Of a DNA stretch of 51,339 nt, positions 29,645 to 42,302 are shown piece after piece (position 1 is the first letter of the stretch; every line of letters starts with the position of its first letter). The notes beneath the pieces are model-generated. The model was not told the origin of the DNA. It made no database searches and saw nothing but the letters and a program-made list of their open reading frames with translations. The stretch is from K189A clade bacterium (lineage in GTDB: Bacteria > Pseudomonadota > Gammaproteobacteria > Pseudomonadales > Azotimanducaceae). Location: NCBI GenBank assembly GCA_902565895.1, contig CACFGV010000013.1, forward strand, positions 1 to 51,339, written 5' to 3'. Made by a program: the position numbers and the translations under genes.

Positions 29645-30478
29645 ATGACCATATCCGCATCGACAACAGAACAGTTACTAGTCGAACAACACGACCACGT
29701 GTTGCTCATTACGCTCAATCGACCCGAGCGGTTGAATGCAATCAGTCGCGCCATGTTGAATGAACTATCTGCCAAGGTTGTGGAAGCCGACAAGGACCCA
29801 GACATCCGCTGCATCGTTTTGACCGGCAACGGTAAAGGGTTTTGCTCTGGCTTAGATCTCGTCGATACTAATGAGCGACGTCAACAAGACAACTCAACCG
29901 ATGCCGCCAAAGCTGGCGACAATCGCCCAAGCCGACGTTTGTTTGATCTCAGAGACGCCCCAATCAATGTGATGTGGCATTGCGACACACCGATTATCTG
30001 TGCCATCAACGGTGCGGCCGCGGGCTATGGTATGGACATGACCCTGTTGTGCGACATTCGCATCATGTCGGAAAATGCCAAGCTCGCCGCAGTCACTGCA
30101 AAGCGCAACGTGGTCCCAGAGAGTGGCGGCACCTGGCTGTTGCCTCGCCTCGTGGGCTGGGCCAAGGCCGCGGAGTTGTACTATCGCGCACGCACGGTAG
30201 ACGCTGCTGAAAGCCTGTCGCTGGGCTTGGTTAACGAGGTCGTGGCCGCAGAGGCGTTGCTGCCCACGGCCATGAGTTGGGCCCACGAAATCGCCGATAA
30301 CGCCCCTATGGCGGTACAAACCACCAAACGCATGATGCGCATGGGCTTAGAGGAATCTTACGACACCGCTGTGGACCATCTCATGGTGCATTTGAACGGT
30401 CTATTCCAAAGTGAAGACTTCGCAGAGGGCCTCAGCGCATTCCTAGAAAAGCGCAAACCCAACTTCACCGGCCGGTAA
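29645..30478 (+). CDS. Enoyl-CoA hydratase/isomerase family protein (crotonase 2)
   Basis: A 277-residue crotonase, clearly paralogous to the one at 30-818: both share AAGYGMD, CDIRIM, NAKLAA, VVPESGGTW, KRMMRMG and FQS-DFAEG. Oxyanion-hole segments are FCSGLDL (66-72) and AAAGYGMD (124-131). The classical second catalytic Glu is absent and Glu159 in VVPESGG is the probable acid/base. It has a longer, Ser/Asp-rich loop (about 75-97) than copy 1. GAGGGG precedes the ATG by 8 bases. Divergent from the DUF5916 gene and convergent with crotonase 3 (5 bp gap). Confidence 0.9.
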   Translation: MTISASTTEQLLVEQHDHVLLITLNRPERLNAISRAMLNELSAKVVEADKDPDIRCIVLTGNGKGFCSGLDLVDTNERRQQDNSTDAAKAGDNRPSRRLFDLRDAPINVMWHCDTPIICAINGAAAGYGMDMTLLCDIRIMSENAKLAAVTAKRNVVPESGGTWLLPRLVGWAKAAELYYRARTVDAAESLSLGLVNEVVAAEALLPTAMSWAHEIADNAPMAVQTTKRMMRMGLEESYDTAVDHLMVHLNGLFQSEDFAEGLSAFLEKRKPNFTGR

Positions 30479-30483
30479 ACCCG

Positions 30484-31320
30484 TTAGGGTAATTTCGCCT
30501 CGCGTTTTATGACCTCGGCCCCTGCAGGGTCTACCGCGCGACCGTGTACGATCTCATTGTTCGCATGACCTAACTGCTGCAACGACATGGCCGCCTGTAG
30601 GGCCGTATAGAAACCTTGAGCGTCTAAGGCCTGGTTAACGCTCTGTTTCGCCAGACGCAATCCCATGCTCGGGCGCTGTGCGATGCGTGCAGCTAAGTCA
30701 CTGGTGAATGTGGTTAGATCAGCGCGCGCCACCACATGATTCACCATACCGCAAGACAACGCTTCCTGTGCCGTCATGCGACCCCCGGTAAACAATAGCT
30801 CCTTTGCTTTACGCGCTCCAAACTCCCAGGGGTGAGCGAAGTACTCGACACCGTTCACGCCAAAGGCCACAACAGGATCAGAAAAGGTCGTGTCTTCGGC
30901 AGCGACAATCAAATCGCAAACCCACACCAACATCAGCCCGCCGGCTATAACCTTGCCCTGAACCTCGGCGATCGTTGGTTTGGGCAAATTACGCCAGCGC
31001 CAGCACAGCCCCAAATAAATTTCCTCTTCTAACGCCTGGCGTCCTTCCGCCCCTGGTTTGTCATAACCCCCCCAATTACTGACCTGAGAAAATTCAGTGA
31101 CGTCAGTACGATCCGCTAAGTCGTGCCCTGAAGAAAAGTGTGGGCCATTGGCAGCGAGCACTATGACTTTTACCTCATCATCACGAGAGGCGAGATCAAA
31201 AGCGTCATTGAGCTCATACAACATGACTTTATCCTGGGCGTTGCGCACCTCGACACGATTTAAGGCGATCCGCGCCACACCCTCGCTTACCTCGTACGTG
31301 ATTCTAGAAAACTCCGACAT
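30484..31320 (-). CDS. Enoyl-CoA hydratase/isomerase family protein (crotonase 3)
   Basis: A 278-residue crotonase. Oxyanion-hole segments are HFSSGHDL (about 61-68) and GKVIAGGLMLVWVCD. At the catalytic positions the usual Glu residues are not evident (the first is replaced in GGLMLVW; the second lies in SDPVVAFGVNG), so the reaction is probably not simple hydration. It differs clearly from crotonases 1 and 2. AAGGAGAGG lies about 8 bases before the ATG. Confidence 0.9.
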   Translation of the reverse strand: MSEFSRITYEVSEGVARIALNRVEVRNAQDKVMLYELNDAFDLASRDDEVKVIVLAANGPHFSSGHDLADRTDVTEFSQVSNWGGYDKPGAEGRQALEEEIYLGLCWRWRNLPKPTIAEVQGKVIAGGLMLVWVCDLIVAAEDTTFSDPVVAFGVNGVEYFAHPWEFGARKAKELLFTGGRMTAQEALSCGMVNHVVARADLTTFTSDLAARIAQRPSMGLRLAKQSVNQALDAQGFYTALQAAMSLQQLGHANNEIVHGRAVDPAGAEVIKREAKLP

Positions 31321-34600: not shown

Positions 34601-35800
34601 ATGGATTTAAACGCTTTTCGTGAAGAAGCCAGAGATTGGTTAGAAAGCAACTGCCCTCAGGCTATGCGCCTCGGCGCCGTGCACTTTGAAGACGCCTACG
34701 AGCTGTATCAGACCGACGAAGCGTTGGAATGGCGGGATCGTGCAGTCACTCGCGGCTGGACAGCGCCTGCATGGCCCACCCAATACGGCGGCGGTGGTTT
34801 GAGCCGAGAACAACACCAGGTACTGGCTCAGGAAATGGCGCGGATAAAGGCATTGCCCCCTGCCACAGGAATGGGCCTGGCCATGATTGGACCGACCATC
34901 TTAGAGTTGGGTACCGAAGAGCAACGTCAACGTCACATTCCCCGCATCATTACCGGCGAAGCTCAGTGGTGCCAAGGTTATTCCGAGCCAGGTGCGGGCT
35001 CTGATTTGGCAGGGCTACAAACCAAAGCAGTTCTTGAGGGTGACGAGTTCATTATCAATGGTCAGAAAATTTGGACCAGTGGTGCGCAGTACGCCAATTG
35101 GATGTTCGCCCTAGTACGCACGGATCCCGAAGCACCGAAACACGAAGGCATCAGCTTTGTACTGCTGCCAATGGATCAACCCGGTGTCACCGTGAAGCCG
35201 ATCAAGTTGATCTCTGGCTCCTCACCGTTTTGTGAAACATTCTTCGATAACGCCGTGGCCAAACGTGAAGACCTGATTGGAGAAATGAACAAAGGCTGGA
35301 GTGTTGGCAAGCGTCTACTGCAATACGAACGCAACGCCACCACCCGCAGCAAGCCAAAAAATGGCGACAAGAAAAAAGCGGCTGCGAAGCCAAAGGCCAA
35401 TCCATATGCAGAGATTGCTAAAAAATATGCAGGCACTGATGCTCAGGGACGCATCGCTGATGATGCCAGCCGCGAAGAAGTACTGGATCAGGTTATGGCA
35501 GAACAAGCCTTAGCCTTGACCACTCGCCGCGTGGTTGAGGAAAGCAAATCGACGGGCGCTCCTGGCGCCGCGACCTCGATCTTCAAGTTGGTGGGCTCTT
35601 CCCTGTCACGTTCTGGTTCAGAGCTGAAGTCTCGCCTGCGCGGTACCGCTGGTTTGGTTTGGGAAAGTAATGAGTTCAGCGAGGACGAGTTGGAGTCGAC
35701 CCGCAGCTGGTTGCGCGACCGCGCGGTAACGATCTACGGTGGCACCAATGAGGTGCAACAAAATATCATCGCAAAGCGCGTGTTAGGACTTCCTGATTAG
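34601..35800 (+). CDS. Acyl-CoA dehydrogenase (paralogue 2) with Lys-rich insertion
   Basis: A 399-residue acyl-CoA dehydrogenase paralogous to the one at 2804-3991, sharing GPTILELGT-EEQ, GYSEPGAGSDLA (127-138) and KRVLGLPD at the C-terminus. As in copy 1 the YEG glutamate is missing (IYGGTNEVQ) and Glu243 in LLQYERN is the candidate base. It carries a Lys/Ala-rich segment (about 250-290, SKPKNGDKKKAAAKPK then YAEIAKKYAG) where copy 1 has a shorter Gly/Ser stretch. GAGGTCGAGAG precedes the ATG. The palindrome at 34513-34528 suggests its own regulation. Confidence 0.92.
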   Translation: MDLNAFREEARDWLESNCPQAMRLGAVHFEDAYELYQTDEALEWRDRAVTRGWTAPAWPTQYGGGGLSREQHQVLAQEMARIKALPPATGMGLAMIGPTILELGTEEQRQRHIPRIITGEAQWCQGYSEPGAGSDLAGLQTKAVLEGDEFIINGQKIWTSGAQYANWMFALVRTDPEAPKHEGISFVLLPMDQPGVTVKPIKLISGSSPFCETFFDNAVAKREDLIGEMNKGWSVGKRLLQYERNATTRSKPKNGDKKKAAAKPKANPYAEIAKKYAGTDAQGRIADDASREEVLDQVMAEQALALTTRRVVEESKSTGAPGAATSIFKLVGSSLSRSGSELKSRLRGTAGLVWESNEFSEDELESTRSWLRDRAVTIYGGTNEVQQNIIAKRVLGLPD

Positions 35801-35845: not shown

Positions 35846-37210
35846 TTAAGGTAAACGGTGGGTCACTGCTCCGGACCGGATCGTGGCCTGCACCTTGACG
35901 TTGGCAACTTGTTTTTTCGCCTCACACCACGGCAGCTGCAAAAGACAAAGGTCTGCATTGGCGCCCACTCTGGTCTCCCGCGCTGGCTCTTTAAGCCCAT
36001 GAGCATTCAGCAGATAACCGCGTAAGGAGTGATCAGGGCTAACTCTTTCTTGGCCGCCAATGGTCGTGCCGGATTGAGTTGTGCGTCGACTGGCGGCGTC
36101 CATGACCTTCCAAGGGTTCACTGGCCCATAGGGACCGTCACTACTTACAACGGTATTCACACCTGCTTCCAGCAGAGCGCGATGCCGGTACAGTACTTCG
36201 ATCTCTCGCGGTTCCAGATCCTTTAAATACTGGTCTCCGCGTTGCCATAAAAAACCTGGCTGGGTGACCACTGAGATTCCCCGCTGTTTAAGACGCGGCA
36301 ACATCTCGTCATAGACAATAGCGGCGTGCTCAATGCGATCTCGCGAATCCGCTGGCACTTGTTCCAGCGCAGTTAACGCAAAGAGAAGTTCTAGGTGACT
36401 TACGCAGTGAAAAGCAATCGAGCGCCCTCGATTACGAGCACGTTGCAAACGAACGACCAAATTTTCTAAGTCTGGGAGAGAGTCCTCATCTAGTATCACC
36501 TTTAACGGCCCGGCATGCAGGCTATCATCACCCATTAACAAGACATCTTGCTGAAGCACACCATCGCTTTGCCATTGCGCAAAGAGCTGTGCAGTTTGTT
36601 GCGAGTTAGTCGCGGAGGTATCAGTAAAACCGGTAACGCCATAGCTCGACAACTGTCGAGACAGAGAACTTATATCGGACGTTAAATCAGCAGATAAACG
36701 CTCTCTTAACCAGCCATCCAAACGAAACAGTCGACCTGTGACTGCACCGCTGGAGTCAACTTCCACTCCGTCAATGTCGGCATACTGCTGTAGCTGGAGT
36801 AATTCAATTGCAGCCGAATTCAGCATCCACGCCTTGCCACTACGATGTTGTATACGCACTGGTCGATTATCCGCCAGCTCATCAAGAGCCCTTACTTGCA
36901 GTTCTCCAGCTATGCTTTCGTGATAGTTAACGCCCCGCAACCACCCAGAGCCAGTCTGCTGCCTCAACAACCGACCTAATTCATCAGGACCGGTAATATC
37001 AACAGCGCCACAATCCACTGAGTTCGCCCAAGCCGCTGTAGCAAGGAAGTGCATATGGTGATCATGCAGGCCGGGCAATAGAGCGCCACCCTGTGCATCG
37101 ATCACCGACTCGCCTGGCGCAGGTTGAATGCTCGAACTGAGTTCCAAAATTTTGTCTTGGAAACGCACATCCAACCGCACACCATCAACTTCGGCGTTAA
37201 CAATTAACAT
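35846..37210 (-). CDS. Amidohydrolase (YtcJ/amidohydrolase_3 type)
   Basis: A 454-residue metal-dependent hydrolase. The metal motif HDHHMH (49-54) is followed by a carbamylated-Lys/His barrel with IAFHCVSHLELL, RIEHAAIVYDEML and VSSDGPYGPVNPW. This group hydrolyses amide or cyclic amide bonds; substrates are mostly unknown. The ATG at 37210 lies inside the end of the CoA-transferase gene (7-bp overlap), so translation is probably coupled; an upstream in-frame start would add 22 residues inside that gene. The pairing with a CoA-transferase of this type is familiar to me from actinobacterial gene sets. Confidence 0.85.
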   Translation of the reverse strand: MLIVNAEVDGVRLDVRFQDKILELSSSIQPAPGESVIDAQGGALLPGLHDHHMHFLATAAWANSVDCGAVDITGPDELGRLLRQQTGSGWLRGVNYHESIAGELQVRALDELADNRPVRIQHRSGKAWMLNSAAIELLQLQQYADIDGVEVDSSGAVTGRLFRLDGWLRERLSADLTSDISSLSRQLSSYGVTGFTDTSATNSQQTAQLFAQWQSDGVLQQDVLLMGDDSLHAGPLKVILDEDSLPDLENLVVRLQRARNRGRSIAFHCVSHLELLFALTALEQVPADSRDRIEHAAIVYDEMLPRLKQRGISVVTQPGFLWQRGDQYLKDLEPREIEVLYRHRALLEAGVNTVVSSDGPYGPVNPWKVMDAASRRTTQSGTTIGGQERVSPDHSLRGYLLNAHGLKEPARETRVGANADLCLLQLPWCEAKKQVANVKVQATIRSGAVTHRLP

Positions 37211-38343
37211 CGCAAAGCGGGCCTTCTTAGCGCAGCGGTGGCTTGACCGTTGTGCTTTTGCAGCCATTCGACACAAAAGCGAGCGGCACGGAACAACGAA
37301 AAATCTACCAACCCCGCTGTTTGTTTTTGCCGTAAGTGCAGAATCACCGAAGCCGCCAACAGGCCCGTTAACGGATCAGCAATGGCATCCCCCGTAAATT
37401 GGGGTTGATTGGGATCTGACCAATCTACAGCGCCCGCAGCTATAGCCACGTCGTCGCCAAAACCTACCCACTGACCAAACGGCAACTCTCGCCCGTAAGC
37501 GGTCAGCGACAGCCACAATTTATCTGGCCGGCCTTGCTCTGTGGAAAGTTGATTGATGCGTGCGTATTCAAGCCCTAGGGCTTCGAGCGCCCTCGGCCGC
37601 GATCCCTCAATGACAACATCTGCGCTGATCAACAAATCACGCAACCGCGCCAGGTCCTTTGAATCTGAGAAGTCGCATTGCCGGCATTCCTTATCTTTAT
37701 GTAACGCTGCAAATAGGTGGGGACTACCTTGGCGAGCACCATCGGGGCGACCAATGGATTCCACTTTAATCACTTCAAAACCACATTGAGCCAGCACATG
37801 TGAGCACAACGGTCCGGCCCACAGCGCCGACAGGTCCACTACTCGTGGCGCTGTCGCCGGGTCAGCAGATGCCTGTTGCAAACTATCTCGCCAATTGTCT
37901 TGGAGAGGTTCTGCAGGGAAAGAAAGCGCAAGCCCCATAAGACGACCACGCTCTACTACCGCCTCAGTTGACTGTTGCGCAACTGCCTGTGCCACCTGTT
38001 CCCAATTTTCAGCCGGTGTTTGTAACCACGCTGGCAGCAACGACCAGTCCTCGATTCGAGCCATGTTCAACGCTATATGGCCGCTCAACGAAGGCAGCAA
38101 TCGGCAGAATTTATTTGCTGAAAAGTGTTCCTTGGGTGCAATACCCAATTCAGCAGCACGTTCCCACAACAAATCAGAGCCAACAACTCCAGCCAGCAAC
38201 TCGGGGTTAAATCTGCGCAAACTTTGCAGCACCACATCGGCACATTCGTTGAGATTGCAAACCGGTATACTCCCAGTATCCAACACGCTGTCTGTTATGA
38301 GCTCATCACCCAAAATACACACTCCTGATGAACTACGACGCAT
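37204..38343 (-). CDS. Family III (CaiB/BaiF) CoA-transferase, apparently circularly permuted
   Basis: A 379-residue CoA-transferase. The segment that normally opens the family, VVDLSALWAGPLCSHVLAQ followed by FEVIKVES, lies at residues 168-195 instead of near residue 10. The probable catalytic Asp is D323 in IADPLTG (equivalent to Asp169 of formyl-CoA transferase), and the protein ends about 55 residues later, where the normal family continues for about 190. Residues 70-150 (RLLPSLSGHIALNMARIEDW ... WEQVAQAVAQQ ... GRLMGLALSFPAEP) match the normal C-terminal part. It would move CoA between acids. ATG at 38343, no strong ribosome site (GAAGAA); it diverges from crotonase 4. Confidence 0.85.
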   Translation of the reverse strand: MRRSSSGVCILGDELITDSVLDTGSIPVCNLNECADVVLQSLRRFNPELLAGVVGSDLLWERAAELGIAPKEHFSANKFCRLLPSLSGHIALNMARIEDWSLLPAWLQTPAENWEQVAQAVAQQSTEAVVERGRLMGLALSFPAEPLQDNWRDSLQQASADPATAPRVVDLSALWAGPLCSHVLAQCGFEVIKVESIGRPDGARQGSPHLFAALHKDKECRQCDFSDSKDLARLRDLLISADVVIEGSRPRALEALGLEYARINQLSTEQGRPDKLWLSLTAYGRELPFGQWVGFGDDVAIAAGAVDWSDPNQPQFTGDAIADPLTGLLAASVILHLRQKQTAGLVDFSLFRAARFCVEWLQKHNGQATAALRRPALRC

Positions 38344-38362
38344 CGTAAGTTCTTCGTTGCTG

Positions 38363-39286
38363 ATGGAGACCTACAACATAGCCCACGGCTGCAACTATAT
38401 GATCGTTACAGCCAGCGACCTTGAACCTATATTGCCCTTATCGCCGCTGCCAAATTGCCCAATTATTGCTTTGTGGGAAGATCCTGGGAAGGTCCCAAAT
38501 GCGATTGAATTAGCGACTTTTGACTGCTGGGCAACACCTGACGAACTGGAACACTTACTTCAAGCCATCACGGCTCAGCCTATTGCCGCTACGGTGTTGT
38601 GCCAAACATTGCGGCAAACCTTAAAACTAGGCGTCGAACAAGCCTTGATGAGCGAATCTCTTGCCTACAGCGTGTTGCAATCCAGTACAGGATTTCTGCA
38701 GTGGCTAGAGACAAGACCCAAACCCACCCTGAACCAGGAGGAAGGGCCCGCAGTCCTTATCCAGCGAGAAGATAATGCATTGGCCATTACCCTGAACAGG
38801 CCCGAACAACACAACGCTTACAATGCTCAAATGCGCGATGAGCTATGGGCCGCCTTGCAGCTTGCGAGCGTCGACACGAGTATCAATAACGTTACGCTGC
38901 GCGGCAACGGCCCATCTTTTTGTTCTGGCGGCGATCTTTCAGAGTTCGGCGCCGTTGACGATTCAGGCATCGCCCACATCGTGCGCACCAGCCGCAGCCC
39001 TGGGCTTTTGCTCCACCAACTTGGCAAACGCACAAGCGTTGAGCTGCACGGCGCCTGCATAGGTGCCGGTATCGAGTTGCCAGCCTTTTGCGGCCATATC
39101 ATCGCCACGCCCGACACTTCTTTTAAGTTACCGGAAGTGGCTTTAGGACTTATCCCTGGGGCCGGTGGCACAGTGAGCATAAGTCGCCGCATTGGGCGGC
39201 ATGCTACCGCAAAGCTTGCGTTAGGCGGCGAATCCATTGACGCAGAAGACGCATTGAGATTCGGCTTGATCGATGCAATACATTAA
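38363..39286 (+). CDS. Enoyl-CoA hydratase (crotonase 4), apparently circularly permuted
   Basis: A 307-residue crotonase with both canonical catalytic glutamates: E238 in GAGIELPAF and E258 in KLPEVALGLIPGAGG, exactly 20 apart as in rat hydratase; oxyanion segments are FCSGGDL and HGACIGAG. The core starts only at about residue 128 (VLIQREDNALAITLNRPE) and stops at GLIDAIH, lacking the 70-residue C-terminal helical part. A segment of that type (residues 58-120: ITAQPIAATVLCQTLRQTL ... ESLAYSVLQSSTGFLQWLETR) lies before the core. Residues 30-55 (PNCPIIALWEDPG) look like a faint crotonase remnant. ATG at 38363 is a guess; ATG at 38297 is in frame. No clear ribosome site. Confidence 0.82.
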   Translation: METYNIAHGCNYMIVTASDLEPILPLSPLPNCPIIALWEDPGKVPNAIELATFDCWATPDELEHLLQAITAQPIAATVLCQTLRQTLKLGVEQALMSESLAYSVLQSSTGFLQWLETRPKPTLNQEEGPAVLIQREDNALAITLNRPEQHNAYNAQMRDELWAALQLASVDTSINNVTLRGNGPSFCSGGDLSEFGAVDDSGIAHIVRTSRSPGLLLHQLGKRTSVELHGACIGAGIELPAFCGHIIATPDTSFKLPEVALGLIPGAGGTVSISRRIGRHATAKLALGGESIDAEDALRFGLIDAIH

Positions 39287-40803
39287 TTCTGTGCGGGTTT
39301 GCCCAGTTCAGTACGCACGACTCGGCGCAGCAGCTTACCAGTTTCGTTGTAAGGCAACTCCTTCCAGACCTGGATCAGCTCTGGCACCCGAGAACTGCGC
39401 AAGCGGTCTTTGACAAAGTCCTGTAACTCCGCGACTTCGATCTCAGCTCCGGGCTTTGCCACCACCGCCGCCGCTACGGCTTCGCCCCATTTTTCGCTCG
39501 GTACACCAACCACCGCGACGTCAGCAACTGCCGGGTGAGTGAGCATGACGTCCTCGATCTCGCCGGGCGAAAGGTTTTCGCCACCCCGAACAATCACGTC
39601 GTCGGCGCGACCCTCTAAAAACAAATATCCCTCGTCATCTAAGCTTCCAGCATCCCGGGTTGGGAACCATCCGGCGCTATCGATCACGGATCCGCGACCC
39701 TCGTACTCGCCAGATACCTGTTCTCCACGGACATAGATCTCACCCCGCTCACCCGCAGATACTTGGTGACCGTCCTCATCACGGATTTCGATCTCAACAC
39801 CAGGCAGCGGCCGACCCACCGACACCAAACGGCGACGTTCTGTGTCTGTGCTGGCCGCAGCAGCTTGTCTGTGTTCTTCTGGCCCTAGCACGCAAATGGT
39901 CGAGCTGGTCTCGGTAAGACCATAAGCGTTCGAGAAGTCCGTATCCGGGAATAAAGTCATCGCTTTTTCGATGACACTTAATGGCATTTTGCCGCCACCA
40001 TATGACAGGCTGCTAAGATGTGGCATTTGCGCATCCGACACGCCCTCGGCTTCTAGACATTCGACGATCCGCGCTAGCATCGTTGGCACCACAAAGGCGG
40101 TGCTGATTTTGTATTTGCGCGCTAATTCGATCCAGGCTTCGGCGGTAAAGTTGGGCAACTGCACAACGTGGCGGCCGGAATAGACCGAGCTCATGATCGC
40201 CGCAATGCCTGCGATATGGTATGGCGGCACACACACCAGAGCAGCATCGCTGTCTTGTGCGCCGGCAAATTCTACTGACCCCAAAATGTACGAGACCAGG
40301 TGCTTGTGTCTAAGCACCGCAGCCTTAGGCTCACCGGTAGTACCGCTGGTGAACAACAAAACTGCAATGTCTTCCGGATCCATCGCCCACGGATCTTCTA
40401 TGCCATGATCATGCTGGGTGTCGTCAAGAAAACTTTGAGTGCTCGCCGCATTAACGTCATCTGTCGCGCCCAGTTCGGCGACTCGCTCAGCGTCGGTAAT
40501 CAAATACGCAGGCGTAACCCGTGCCAGCAGCGCCTTAATCTCTGCATCCGTGAGTCGATAATTCAACGGAACATAAGGCACGCCAGCCCACGCACTGGCG
40601 AACAAGCTCAGTGGCGTGCCCAAATTGCTGACATCTAATTTCACTAGGCGGCTCGCGCCACTGGCCTGGATAGTACCCGCGCGCAAACGCGCTGCATCAA
40701 AGAGTTGTTGATAAGTAAAACTGACACCCGTGCTGCCATCGGTGAATGCCAACCGCTCGGGAAAAGCCGCGCTGGCCATTTCCAGCAACATCATTACGTT
40801 CAT
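39283..40803 (-). CDS. Acyl-CoA synthetase (AMP-forming) 2
   Basis: A 506-residue adenylate-forming ligase that activates a carboxylic acid to its CoA ester. The P-loop LFTSGTTGEPK is at 150-160, the A5 region is NAYGLTETSS, the hinge contains EGRADDVIVRGGEN, and the catalytic Lys is K490 in NETGKLLRR. It differs clearly from synthetase 1. The stop overlaps that of the convergent crotonase 4 in TTAA (39283-39286). Upstream it is separated by 8 bp from the small protein gene, so the two are co-transcribed. Confidence 0.93.
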   Translation of the reverse strand: MNVMMLLEMASAAFPERLAFTDGSTGVSFTYQQLFDAARLRAGTIQASGASRLVKLDVSNLGTPLSLFASAWAGVPYVPLNYRLTDAEIKALLARVTPAYLITDAERVAELGATDDVNAASTQSFLDDTQHDHGIEDPWAMDPEDIAVLLFTSGTTGEPKAAVLRHKHLVSYILGSVEFAGAQDSDAALVCVPPYHIAGIAAIMSSVYSGRHVVQLPNFTAEAWIELARKYKISTAFVVPTMLARIVECLEAEGVSDAQMPHLSSLSYGGGKMPLSVIEKAMTLFPDTDFSNAYGLTETSSTICVLGPEEHRQAAAASTDTERRRLVSVGRPLPGVEIEIRDEDGHQVSAGERGEIYVRGEQVSGEYEGRGSVIDSAGWFPTRDAGSLDDEGYLFLEGRADDVIVRGGENLSPGEIEDVMLTHPAVADVAVVGVPSEKWGEAVAAAVVAKPGAEIEVAELQDFVKDRLRSSRVPELIQVWKELPYNETGKLLRRVVRTELGKPAQN

Positions 40804-41246: not shown

Positions 41247-42302
41247 TTGCGTATTTCCATATCCATAGGTTCCGCTTACTACAACGGTGAGGAATGGGAT
41301 CAACTGGTCGAATACACCCAGGCCGCCGACCACATGGGTGTACACGAGGCTTGGTCAGCAGAGGCCTGGGGCATGGATGCTATTGTCCCGCTGGCATATC
41401 TAGCTGCAAAAACCGAACGCATTCGGTTAGGCACCGGCATCATGCAAATCAGTTCCCGCGTACCTTCCATGATTGCTATGACCGCGCAAAGTTTAGACAC
41501 CGTGTCGAATGGCCGCTTTAACCTGGGACTAGGTGTCAGTGGCCCTCAAGTGGTGGAAGGATTGCATGGCGCAAAGTTCGCTAAGCCTTTATCACGTCTA
41601 CGAGAATGCGTTGATATTCTCCGTTTGGGTTTAGGCGGCGAGAAACTCCAGTACGACGGAGAACACTACACGTTGCCTCGACCCGGTGGCGAAGGGAAAC
41701 CCATACGTTTATCCCAACCACCCCGACCTAACCTGCCGATCTACCTAGCAACACTGGGGCCTAAATCGCTGCAAATGACTGGCGAAGTGGCCGACGGTTG
41801 GCTCGGCACCTGCTTTATGCCGGAGGCGGGCCATGTGTTCCTGGATGACCTTGAAGCGGGTGCAAAAGATGCGGGGCGCAGCCTGCAGGACATTGACATT
41901 CAGACCGGTGGCTACTTCGAGATCAGTGACGACGTTGATCGACTGGTGGCTGAACGCAAGCCCGCCATGGCCTTCACTTTGGGTGCAATGGGATCGGCGA
42001 AAACGAACTTTTACAACGACGCCTATTGCCGAGCCGGCTATGAGGATGACGCTAAGGCCGTTCAGAGCCTATGGATCGACGGCAAGCGTGACCAAGCCAT
42101 CGCTCGGGTACCCGACGAGATGGTTTTGTTAACCAACTTAATTGGTACAGAGACCATGGTGCGAGAACGCCTGAGAGCATTTCGAGACGCAGGTGTTAAT
42201 ACCATCCGCTTGGGTACCGGTGGCGGCAACTGGAGCGAGCGCACCGCCGCTTTGGAAGAAGCCACCGATCTGGTGCTCAACGAATCCGCCAGCTGGTCCT
42301 AA
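41247..42302 (+). CDS. LLM-class oxidoreductase, F420-dependent Rv3520c-like (copy 2)
   Basis: A 351-residue LLM oxidoreductase paralogous to 18177-19214: WSAEAWGMDA and GLGVSGPQVVEGLHG are in the same places, and the C-terminal LIGTETMVRERLRAFRDAGV segment matches AERIKERLQRWKTAG of copy 1. The family is annotated as coenzyme-F420-dependent from mycobacterial members; the cofactor here is inferred. It starts with TTG after AAAGGAGAGCATC, a strong ribosome site. It stands alone on the plus strand beside the divergent synthetase operon and converges on the GFA gene. Confidence 0.85.
   Translation: MRISISIGSAYYNGEEWDQLVEYTQAADHMGVHEAWSAEAWGMDAIVPLAYLAAKTERIRLGTGIMQISSRVPSMIAMTAQSLDTVSNGRFNLGLGVSGPQVVEGLHGAKFAKPLSRLRECVDILRLGLGGEKLQYDGEHYTLPRPGGEGKPIRLSQPPRPNLPIYLATLGPKSLQMTGEVADGWLGTCFMPEAGHVFLDDLEAGAKDAGRSLQDIDIQTGGYFEISDDVDRLVAERKPAMAFTLGAMGSAKTNFYNDAYCRAGYEDDAKAVQSLWIDGKRDQAIARVPDEMVLLTNLIGTETMVRERLRAFRDAGVNTIRLGTGGGNWSERTAALEEATDLVLNESASWS

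Follow-up and report, generated by a model that had tools for sequence, protein, structure and literature searches.

The two genes investigated in the current study are located on contig CACFGV010000013.1 (assembly GCA_902565895.1; 2.02 Mb, 69% complete) of a K189A clade bacterium from the Gammaproteobacteria. The window, i.e. the whole stretch of DNA that was analysed, comprises 51,339 nucleotides. It harbors an open reading frame for a family III (CaiB/BaiF) coenzyme A (CoA) transferase on the minus strand (37204-38343) and one for a crotonase that ends at 39286 on the plus strand, both present as described in the initial annotation. In both proteins the catalytic core stands last and is preceded by a block resembling the normally C-terminal part of the respective family; the term "permuted" is used below for this order of blocks. 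The features of the two genes are:

37204..38343, minus strand: permuted family III (CaiB/BaiF) CoA-transferase (PF02515, E 5.9e-29, residues 167-356 only)
37903..38109, minus strand: N-terminal block of the CoA-transferase, corresponding to the small domain (hhalign; computed from aligned residues 79-147)
37270..37860, minus strand: catalytic large (Rossmann) domain of the CoA-transferase, normally N-terminal (residues 162-358)
37375..37377, minus strand: codon of the catalytic Asp323 of the CoA-transferase (GDAIADPLTG; aligned to the canonical catalytic column)
38297..39286, plus strand: permuted crotonase (enoyl-CoA hydratase-like), 329 amino acids (aa), corrected start (PF00378, E 3.4e-31, C-terminal part only)
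38537..38698, plus strand: N-terminal helical segment of the crotonase, similar to the canonical C-terminal helical cap (residues 81-134)
38738..39283, plus strand: spiral core of the crotonase, ending where the C-terminal helices should begin (Pfam and profile comparison)
39074..39076, plus strand: catalytic Glu of the crotonase, E260 of 329 aa (E238 in the initial annotation; 65/65)
39134..39136, plus strand: catalytic Glu of the crotonase, E280 of 329 aa (E258 in the initial annotation; 65/65)

The head-to-head arrangement of the two genes is confirmed, while their start codons require revision. The crotonase very probably begins at 38297, upstream of the position originally assumed (38363), because the conserved N-terminus of its relatives extends beyond the latter. 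The CoA-transferase probably starts later than 38343, perhaps with a GTG at 38286, since in four of its six closest relatives (G002, G004, G015, G035) a stop codon interrupts roughly the first ten residues of the claimed frame and many relatives can be aligned only from about residue 24. With these corrections the two start codons are 10 bp apart in the window (38286-38297). In many relatives (L014, L015, L017, L018, L021-L023, L026 and others) the divergent starts lie 4 bp apart or overlap by 2, and in other relatives they are far apart; all these distances rest on starts assigned in this analysis. Start codons so close to each other would place promoters and ribosome-binding sites within the opposite gene. 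The sequence GTATAC is found at the CoA-transferase start in five of the seven junctions displayed.

Block order and catalytic residues

The comparative analysis is based on 47 of 71 CoA-transferase candidates, 65 of 79 crotonases and 65 of 84 amidohydrolases, which were kept after filtering for length, X and exact duplicates (L008 was excluded by hand); L108, L113 and L127 were left out of the first canonical sets. Pfam recognizes just the C-terminal part of both proteins. In the CoA-transferase, residues 167-356 match positions 5-201 of the 366 positions of PF02515 with 101.7 bits (100.8 bits over 5-202 in another run). The profile of the 47 permuted proteins and that of ten canonical paralogues from the window's own genome yield two alignments in reversed order instead of one colinear match: the core (147-338) corresponds to canonical positions 29-231 (probability 99.9) and the N-terminal block (60-130) to positions 258-344 (probability 80.9, E 1.3e-5). 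Compared alone with 42 canonical sequences, the N-block aligns with the small domain (57-128 with 236-324; E 3.6e-7), and its score of 51.4 compares with a maximum of 20.1 among 200 column shuffles, 11.3 for the reversed block and 16.2 for a canonical crotonase profile. The canonical hidden Markov model (HMM) scores 38 of the 47 N-blocks above the 99th percentile of shuffles, and in searches of Pfam with single N-blocks CoA_transf_3 is matched by 8/40 and every other family by at most one. The catalytic D323 (D304 in the numbering of the conservation analysis), which had been proposed from the sequence of the window, lies in the expected motif, is invariant in all 47 proteins and occupies the canonical column in the 22 permuted cores compared (22/22). 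The protein exhibits the Rossmann large domain, the catalytic Asp and the small domain of family III (PF02515), the last by sequence profile only, and deviates from the family order large - small - large (C-terminal part) in that the small domain comes first. The reversed block order of the CoA-transferase, as initially proposed, is strongly supported. In one relative (G014, L050:4983-6422), two matching pieces share the same 479-aa open frame and are separated by about 65 additional residues.

The signal in the crotonase is weaker but consistent across the comparisons. Residues 137-306 match positions 4-173 of the 251 positions of PF00378 (108.9 bits), and the profile comparison with canonical sequences aligns the core (148-341) with canonical positions 9-204 (probability 100) and, weakly, the N-terminal segment (81-120) with positions 199-239 (probability 2.8%, E 0.016). 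The whole N-block scores 20.5 and is matched or beaten by two of 200 shuffles; the helical part alone scores 20.1 at canonical positions 194-248, which none of 200 shuffles reaches (maximum 16.8). A second, insignificant phmmer match to PaaF of Escherichia coli places the helical segment at about the same positions, and when the helical block is moved behind the core, with the first 55 residues omitted, PF00378 is matched over positions 4-244 rather than 4-173 and the score improves from 108.9 to 115.0 bits. In a scan of 58 N-blocks against 18,950 NCBIfam models, just two models are matched repeatedly, by four and two members, and both are crotonases (best E among the matches 0.025). The region ahead of the helices (around YLVVDL, CPVIGL and FDVVV) can be aligned, faintly but collinearly, with the middle of the canonical core (56-61 with 102-107; 1/200 shuffles as high), as a shrunken first copy would give. 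Both catalytic Glu residues named initially, E238 and E258 in that numbering, are found in the expected motifs and are invariant (65/65 each), as are R106, E120, S121, L127 and Q128 of the N-block. The conserved residues of the permuted CoA-transferases and crotonases give no sign of decay. The crotonase has the spiral core and the two hydratase-type catalytic Glu of its superfamily (PF00378) but ends with the core; it lacks the helical domain usually found behind it and has a similar helical segment at the N-terminus. The reversed order proposed for the crotonase is moderately supported. The permuted crotonase of Gordonia desulfuricans (L027:5255-6153) matches in two reading frames, which points to a frameshift or a sequencing error.

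AlphaFold models were calculated from alignments of the window protein with L021-L026 (crotonase) and L021-L027 (CoA-transferase). Foldseek retrieves members of the crotonase superfamily over about 180 columns with the former model, and Rv3272, SUGCT and relatives as best hits over about 210 columns with the latter. The low-confidence models contain helices at 81-93, 95-108, 113-128 and 131-139 of the crotonase and two strands plus three helices at 80-135 of the CoA-transferase; this predicted secondary structure of both N-blocks is compatible with the proposed block order without being a test of it.

Several results weigh against the view that the N-blocks are displaced parts of their own families. 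In the CoA-transferase, moving the block behind the core leaves the PF02515 score unchanged (101.7 to 101.6 bits), and the gain with a core-plus-block HMM is small (median 0.9 bits, 37/47 still beating all of their own shuffles). None of 58 crotonase N-blocks alone hits PF00378, and placing the N-block behind the core brings no gain with an HMM built for this analysis (median -0.8 bits, n=65), with only 2/65 crotonases beating their 20 shuffles in this rejoining test; 6/65 N-blocks exceed the 99th percentile of shuffles. A fusion of two crotonases was not seen, and no N-block hit lies in an open frame longer than 555 aa. The two models are poor (mean pLDDT 57.0 for the crotonase and 57.3 for the CoA-transferase), their Foldseek alignments are about as long as the cores, so that a location of the N-blocks in place of the missing parts gains no support, and neither N-block profile finds its own superfamily among the PDB sequences at E values up to 10. 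The negative PDB searches, in which ribokinase is the best hit of the crotonase N-block (E 0.022), and the negative joining test of the crotonase would fit recruitment of unrelated N-terminal domains, in both proteins or in the crotonase alone, combined with a simple loss of the C-terminal parts. This scenario is quite improbable given that the CoA-transferase block matches the expected canonical positions with E values from 3.6e-7 to 1.1e-9 and that the crotonase block is found in the same register in four alignments, with crotonases as the only recurrent models in NCBIfam.

Origin of the CoA-transferase parts

Among the proteins of the related genomes are also CaiB-CaiB fusions of 757-826 residues, of which 14 were examined (from 15 stretches picked for long open frames); their first and second halves are designated F1 (21 sequences in the profile) and F2 (18 sequences). 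The catalytic Asp is present in F2 (14/14), in the CT6 type (4/4) and in most single CoA-transferases (38/42), and largely missing in F1 (3/14), CT8 (0/4) and CT27 (1/3). The N-block of the permuted CoA-transferase matches F1 over positions 208-325 (probability 95.6, E 1.1e-8), and with upstream residues added over 137-326 (E 1.1e-9); the corresponding values for F2 are 84.7 (E 6.7e-6) and 91.1 (E 1e-6). F1 is preferred over F2 by 45/47 N-blocks (means 10.2 vs 2.4 bits), compared with 14/36 small domains of single CoA-transferases, a control purged only of near-identical set members. An alignment of the N-blocks to F1 with hmmalign leaves gaps at the catalytic column in 46/47.

In a tree of 22 of the 47 permuted cores, 26 of the 42 single CoA-transferases and up to four sequences each of CT6, CT8, CT27 and CT12, all permuted cores fall into a single clade (100/100). 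This clade shares its side of the tree with F2 and the CT6-type subunits, and a branch with 98/91 support separates permuted cores, F2 and CT6 from F1, CT8, CT27 and CT12. All 47 permuted cores also prefer F2 over F1 by HMM score; the large domains of single CoA-transferases do so as well (32/36), and the placement with F2 accordingly rests on the tree. Within the F2 side, the tree does not settle the nearest relatives of the cores, whose branch is long. The chain order of the permuted protein, a first-half part followed by a second-half part, is that of the fusion. A pattern search identified seven distinct loci (L027, L068, L069, L074, L075, L078, L079) in which the small domain is preceded by an LTG..DGP stretch; in two of these loci the stretch lies upstream of the assigned start. 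By their sequence, these loci appear to keep more of a first copy.

Separate canonical CoA-transferase genes also occur near the conserved neighborhood. CT6 and CT8 form adjacent pairs in L029-L031, L033, L034, L040, L047, L048, L054 and L057-L060, CT6 and CT27 in L038, L039 and L047, and L136 encodes a fusion of the CT27 and CT6 types. In such pairs CT6 has the catalytic Asp and its CT8 or CT27 partner is mostly without it.

To our knowledge, every family III CoA-transferase whose structure has been determined forms an interlocked dimer, with active sites made up of both chains. Catalysis in this family proceeds via an aspartyl-anhydride and an aspartyl-CoA thioester, and BbsEF is a case of a heteromeric CoA-transferase. 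According to three structural papers, the active site combines the large domain of one subunit with the small domain of its partner (PMC9196870, PMC3720670, PMC10967716). If the first half of such a fused pair is dead, the sole working site would therefore consist of the large domain of the second half and the small domain of the first, and exactly these two parts seem to have survived in the permuted protein. The account that we consider probable as a whole is that the CoA-transferase is a pruned tandem fusion rather than one permuted gene, with a parallel layout in the crotonase. A fusion of the order A-B, as in the CaiB-CaiB proteins, would have joined a dead subunit A to an active subunit B and would then have lost most of the large domain of A and the small domain of B. 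The remainder would be the small domain of A followed by the large domain of B with its catalytic Asp (perhaps with the last helix of B in some relatives), thereby keeping exactly one working site in a single chain, at which the usual route of the family would be followed. In the crotonase, the helical cap in front of the core would probably derive from a shrunken first copy, and the enzyme would hydrate or dehydrate an acyl-CoA, since both catalytic Glu are kept.

The initial annotation had described both proteins as circularly permuted, of which the reversed block order stands, whereas permutation of a single gene explains the CoA-transferase less well than a pruned fusion does. Such an origin would require that each gene was duplicated in tandem and trimmed, the pairing reflecting a shared pathway. 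It would explain the reversed order in both proteins, and nothing indicates different ancestors for the two parts of the crotonase. Nevertheless we regard it as rather unlikely, because N-block and core of the CoA-transferase resemble different halves of the fused proteins. Moreover, the canonical stretch of about 325-385, from the small domain to the last helix, has no counterpart in the CoA-transferase, which is consequently no clean permutation.

Pairing within a conserved module

Homologous loci were found in OM182, K189A, Pseudomonadales and other proteobacterial bins as well as in Gordonia desulfuricans. The pair is embedded in the following neighborhood of the window:

35846..37210, minus strand: Amidohydro_3 amidohydrolase, third conserved member of the module (PF07969, E 1.4e-31; conserved neighbor)
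39283..40803, minus strand: acyl-CoA ligase (AMP-binding type), frequent neighbor (NCBIfam matches)
34601..35800, plus strand: acyl-CoA dehydrogenase, neighbor in some loci (TIGR03204, E 4.2e-83, below its cut-off)
41247..42302, plus strand: LLM-class oxidoreductase, neighbor in some loci (TIGR03559, E 1.7e-99, just below the cut-off)

Among the relatives L002-L027, several of which represent one locus twice, the permuted crotonase is located near the CoA-transferase in 25/26 and the amidohydrolase in 26/26; the exception, L004, begins where its contig does, and the crotonase is located on a different contig of that genome. A survey of 80 related genomes was chosen so as to contain every carrier of the CoA-transferase seen earlier, and since part of the first-look candidates was scored per genome, absences are provisional. 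Here, 39 of the 40 gammaproteobacterial genomes with the permuted CoA-transferase also carry the permuted crotonase, the CoA-transferase of the remaining one (G134) lying on a contig of 3.8 kb. In Actinomycetota, the phylum of Gordonia, 296 genomes were surveyed with 5 to 13 candidates scored each. The CoA-transferase is present in 12 of them and the crotonase N-block in the same 12 (G241, whose match is without N-block, was left uncounted), which bears out the similar architecture that the initial annotation mentioned for actinobacterial proteins; the amidohydrolase occurs in 10/296, all among the carriers of the pair. The two genes lie within about 8 kb in 10/12 (one crotonase being broken) and in several gene orders. 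The crotonase N-block is found in 46 of 87 close relatives, and in a wider draw of the class in only 2 of 369 genomes, including that of the window. Pairwise distances of CoA-transferase and crotonase correlate with 0.937 in 30 loci (0/2000 permutations as high). The linkage of the two genes is real, and their linked evolution, which had been suggested at the outset, is supported by co-occurrence, conserved linkage and distance correlation.

A hetero-complex of the two enzymes, each reshaped to fit the other, had been envisaged as one form of partnership. The identical distribution in Actinomycetota and the high correlation would agree with it, though the amidohydrolase distances correlate equally well (0.93; range of the three 0.93-0.94). 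The permuted crotonase is present in 22/40 related genomes in which no permuted CoA-transferase was found, which argues against an obligate complex, and on the crotonase tree the presence of the CoA-transferase changes seven times, at least three of them forced, so that it was repeatedly lost or gained while the crotonase stayed. In this count, the crotonases L053 and L067 are treated as accompanied by the CoA-transferase, which their genomes carry on another contig or 18 kb away. The actinobacterial genes are often kilobases apart (about 24 kb in G196, on different contigs in G237). A complex is not supported and is the least likely of the explanations considered.

CT6, CT8 or CT27 is located nearby in 11/22 loci without the permuted CoA-transferase and in 5/27 loci with it (Fisher p 0.03; L025 and L070 are one locus in this test, and contig ends cut several loci). 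A strict replacement of the permuted CoA-transferase by canonical pairs was rejected, five loci having both and only 11 of the 22 loci without it showing any of these types.

Neighbor clustering of 64 sources (63 loci and the window, some duplicated and many cut by contig ends) revealed amidohydrolases of this type in 56/64, an acyl-CoA ligase homologue in 48/64, an acyl-CoA dehydrogenase in 21/64 and the LLM oxidoreductase in 20/64. In the window, the likely amidohydrolase start (37210) overlaps the stop of the CoA-transferase. Judged from these neighbors, the setting is likely a beta-oxidation-type breakdown of an acid, in which activation by the ligase or by CoA transfer would be followed by dehydrogenation, hydration by the crotonase and hydrolysis by the amidohydrolase. 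Both permuted enzymes would serve this one catabolic module; the CoA-transferase is a predicted CoA transfer enzyme and may alternatively be a racemase of the same fold. The LLM oxidoreductase (41247-42302), encoded here by a gammaproteobacterium, scores 333.0 with the model of the Rv3520c family (cut-off 335), which is named F420-dependent. Two further crotonases, canonical and convergent (29645-30478 and 30484-31320), lie some 7-9 kb from the permuted one.

Relation to known enzymes and implications

The permuted CoA-transferase shares the large-domain sequence, the catalytic Asp and the small-domain sequence with the family III CoA-transferases (CaiB/BaiF; Frc, YfdE, Rv3272, Mct) and alpha-methylacyl-CoA racemase, from which it differs in that the small domain precedes the large one. 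In YfdE, the partner is threaded through a closed ring (PMC3720670); the permuted protein probably has just one interdomain link, so that a ring could not close as it does in YfdE. Fused CaiB-CaiB proteins and paired genes (CT8 plus CT6, CT27 plus CT6) have an Asp-bearing second and a mostly Asp-less first half and the same order of parts, but the permuted protein comprises about 380 instead of 760-830 residues, and contains the large and the small domain once rather than twice. The permuted crotonase has the spiral core and both catalytic Glu in common with enoyl-CoA hydratase, PaaF and MenB, and it differs in carrying the cap-like segment in front of the core instead of a helical domain behind it. 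In some crotonases, the helical cap covers the active site of a neighboring subunit (PMC3637252). A literature search on circular permutation in crotonases and CoA-transferases, with subscription papers mostly outside its coverage, retrieved no description of either protein; PMC2837397 and PMC6157337 are unrelated to the permuted pair.

It is conceivable, though we are doubtful, that two unrelated folds of one module were rebuilt alike, by tandem fusion and pruning that turned a cap supplied by a neighbor into the enzyme's own N-terminus. If true, the CoA-transferase would have one asymmetric active site and no need for an interlocked partner, the crotonase would have a built-in cap, and both would have been under one selective pressure, for example on assembly, substrate size or regulation. 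The rearrangement of blocks also explains the incomplete coverage of both proteins by the usual family models. The pair helps to define a conserved module of permuted crotonase, permuted CoA-transferase, amidohydrolase and often a ligase in marine gammaproteobacteria and some actinobacteria. Living genomes contain complete fusions and separate pairs as well as pruned forms whose N-termini differ in length, and a natural CoA-transferase that keeps one site with half the parts would offer a test of how far the dimer can be simplified and whether interlocking is needed. Since a neighboring, unrelated enzyme is laid out in the same way and has almost the same distribution, the question of a common cause can be tested directly.

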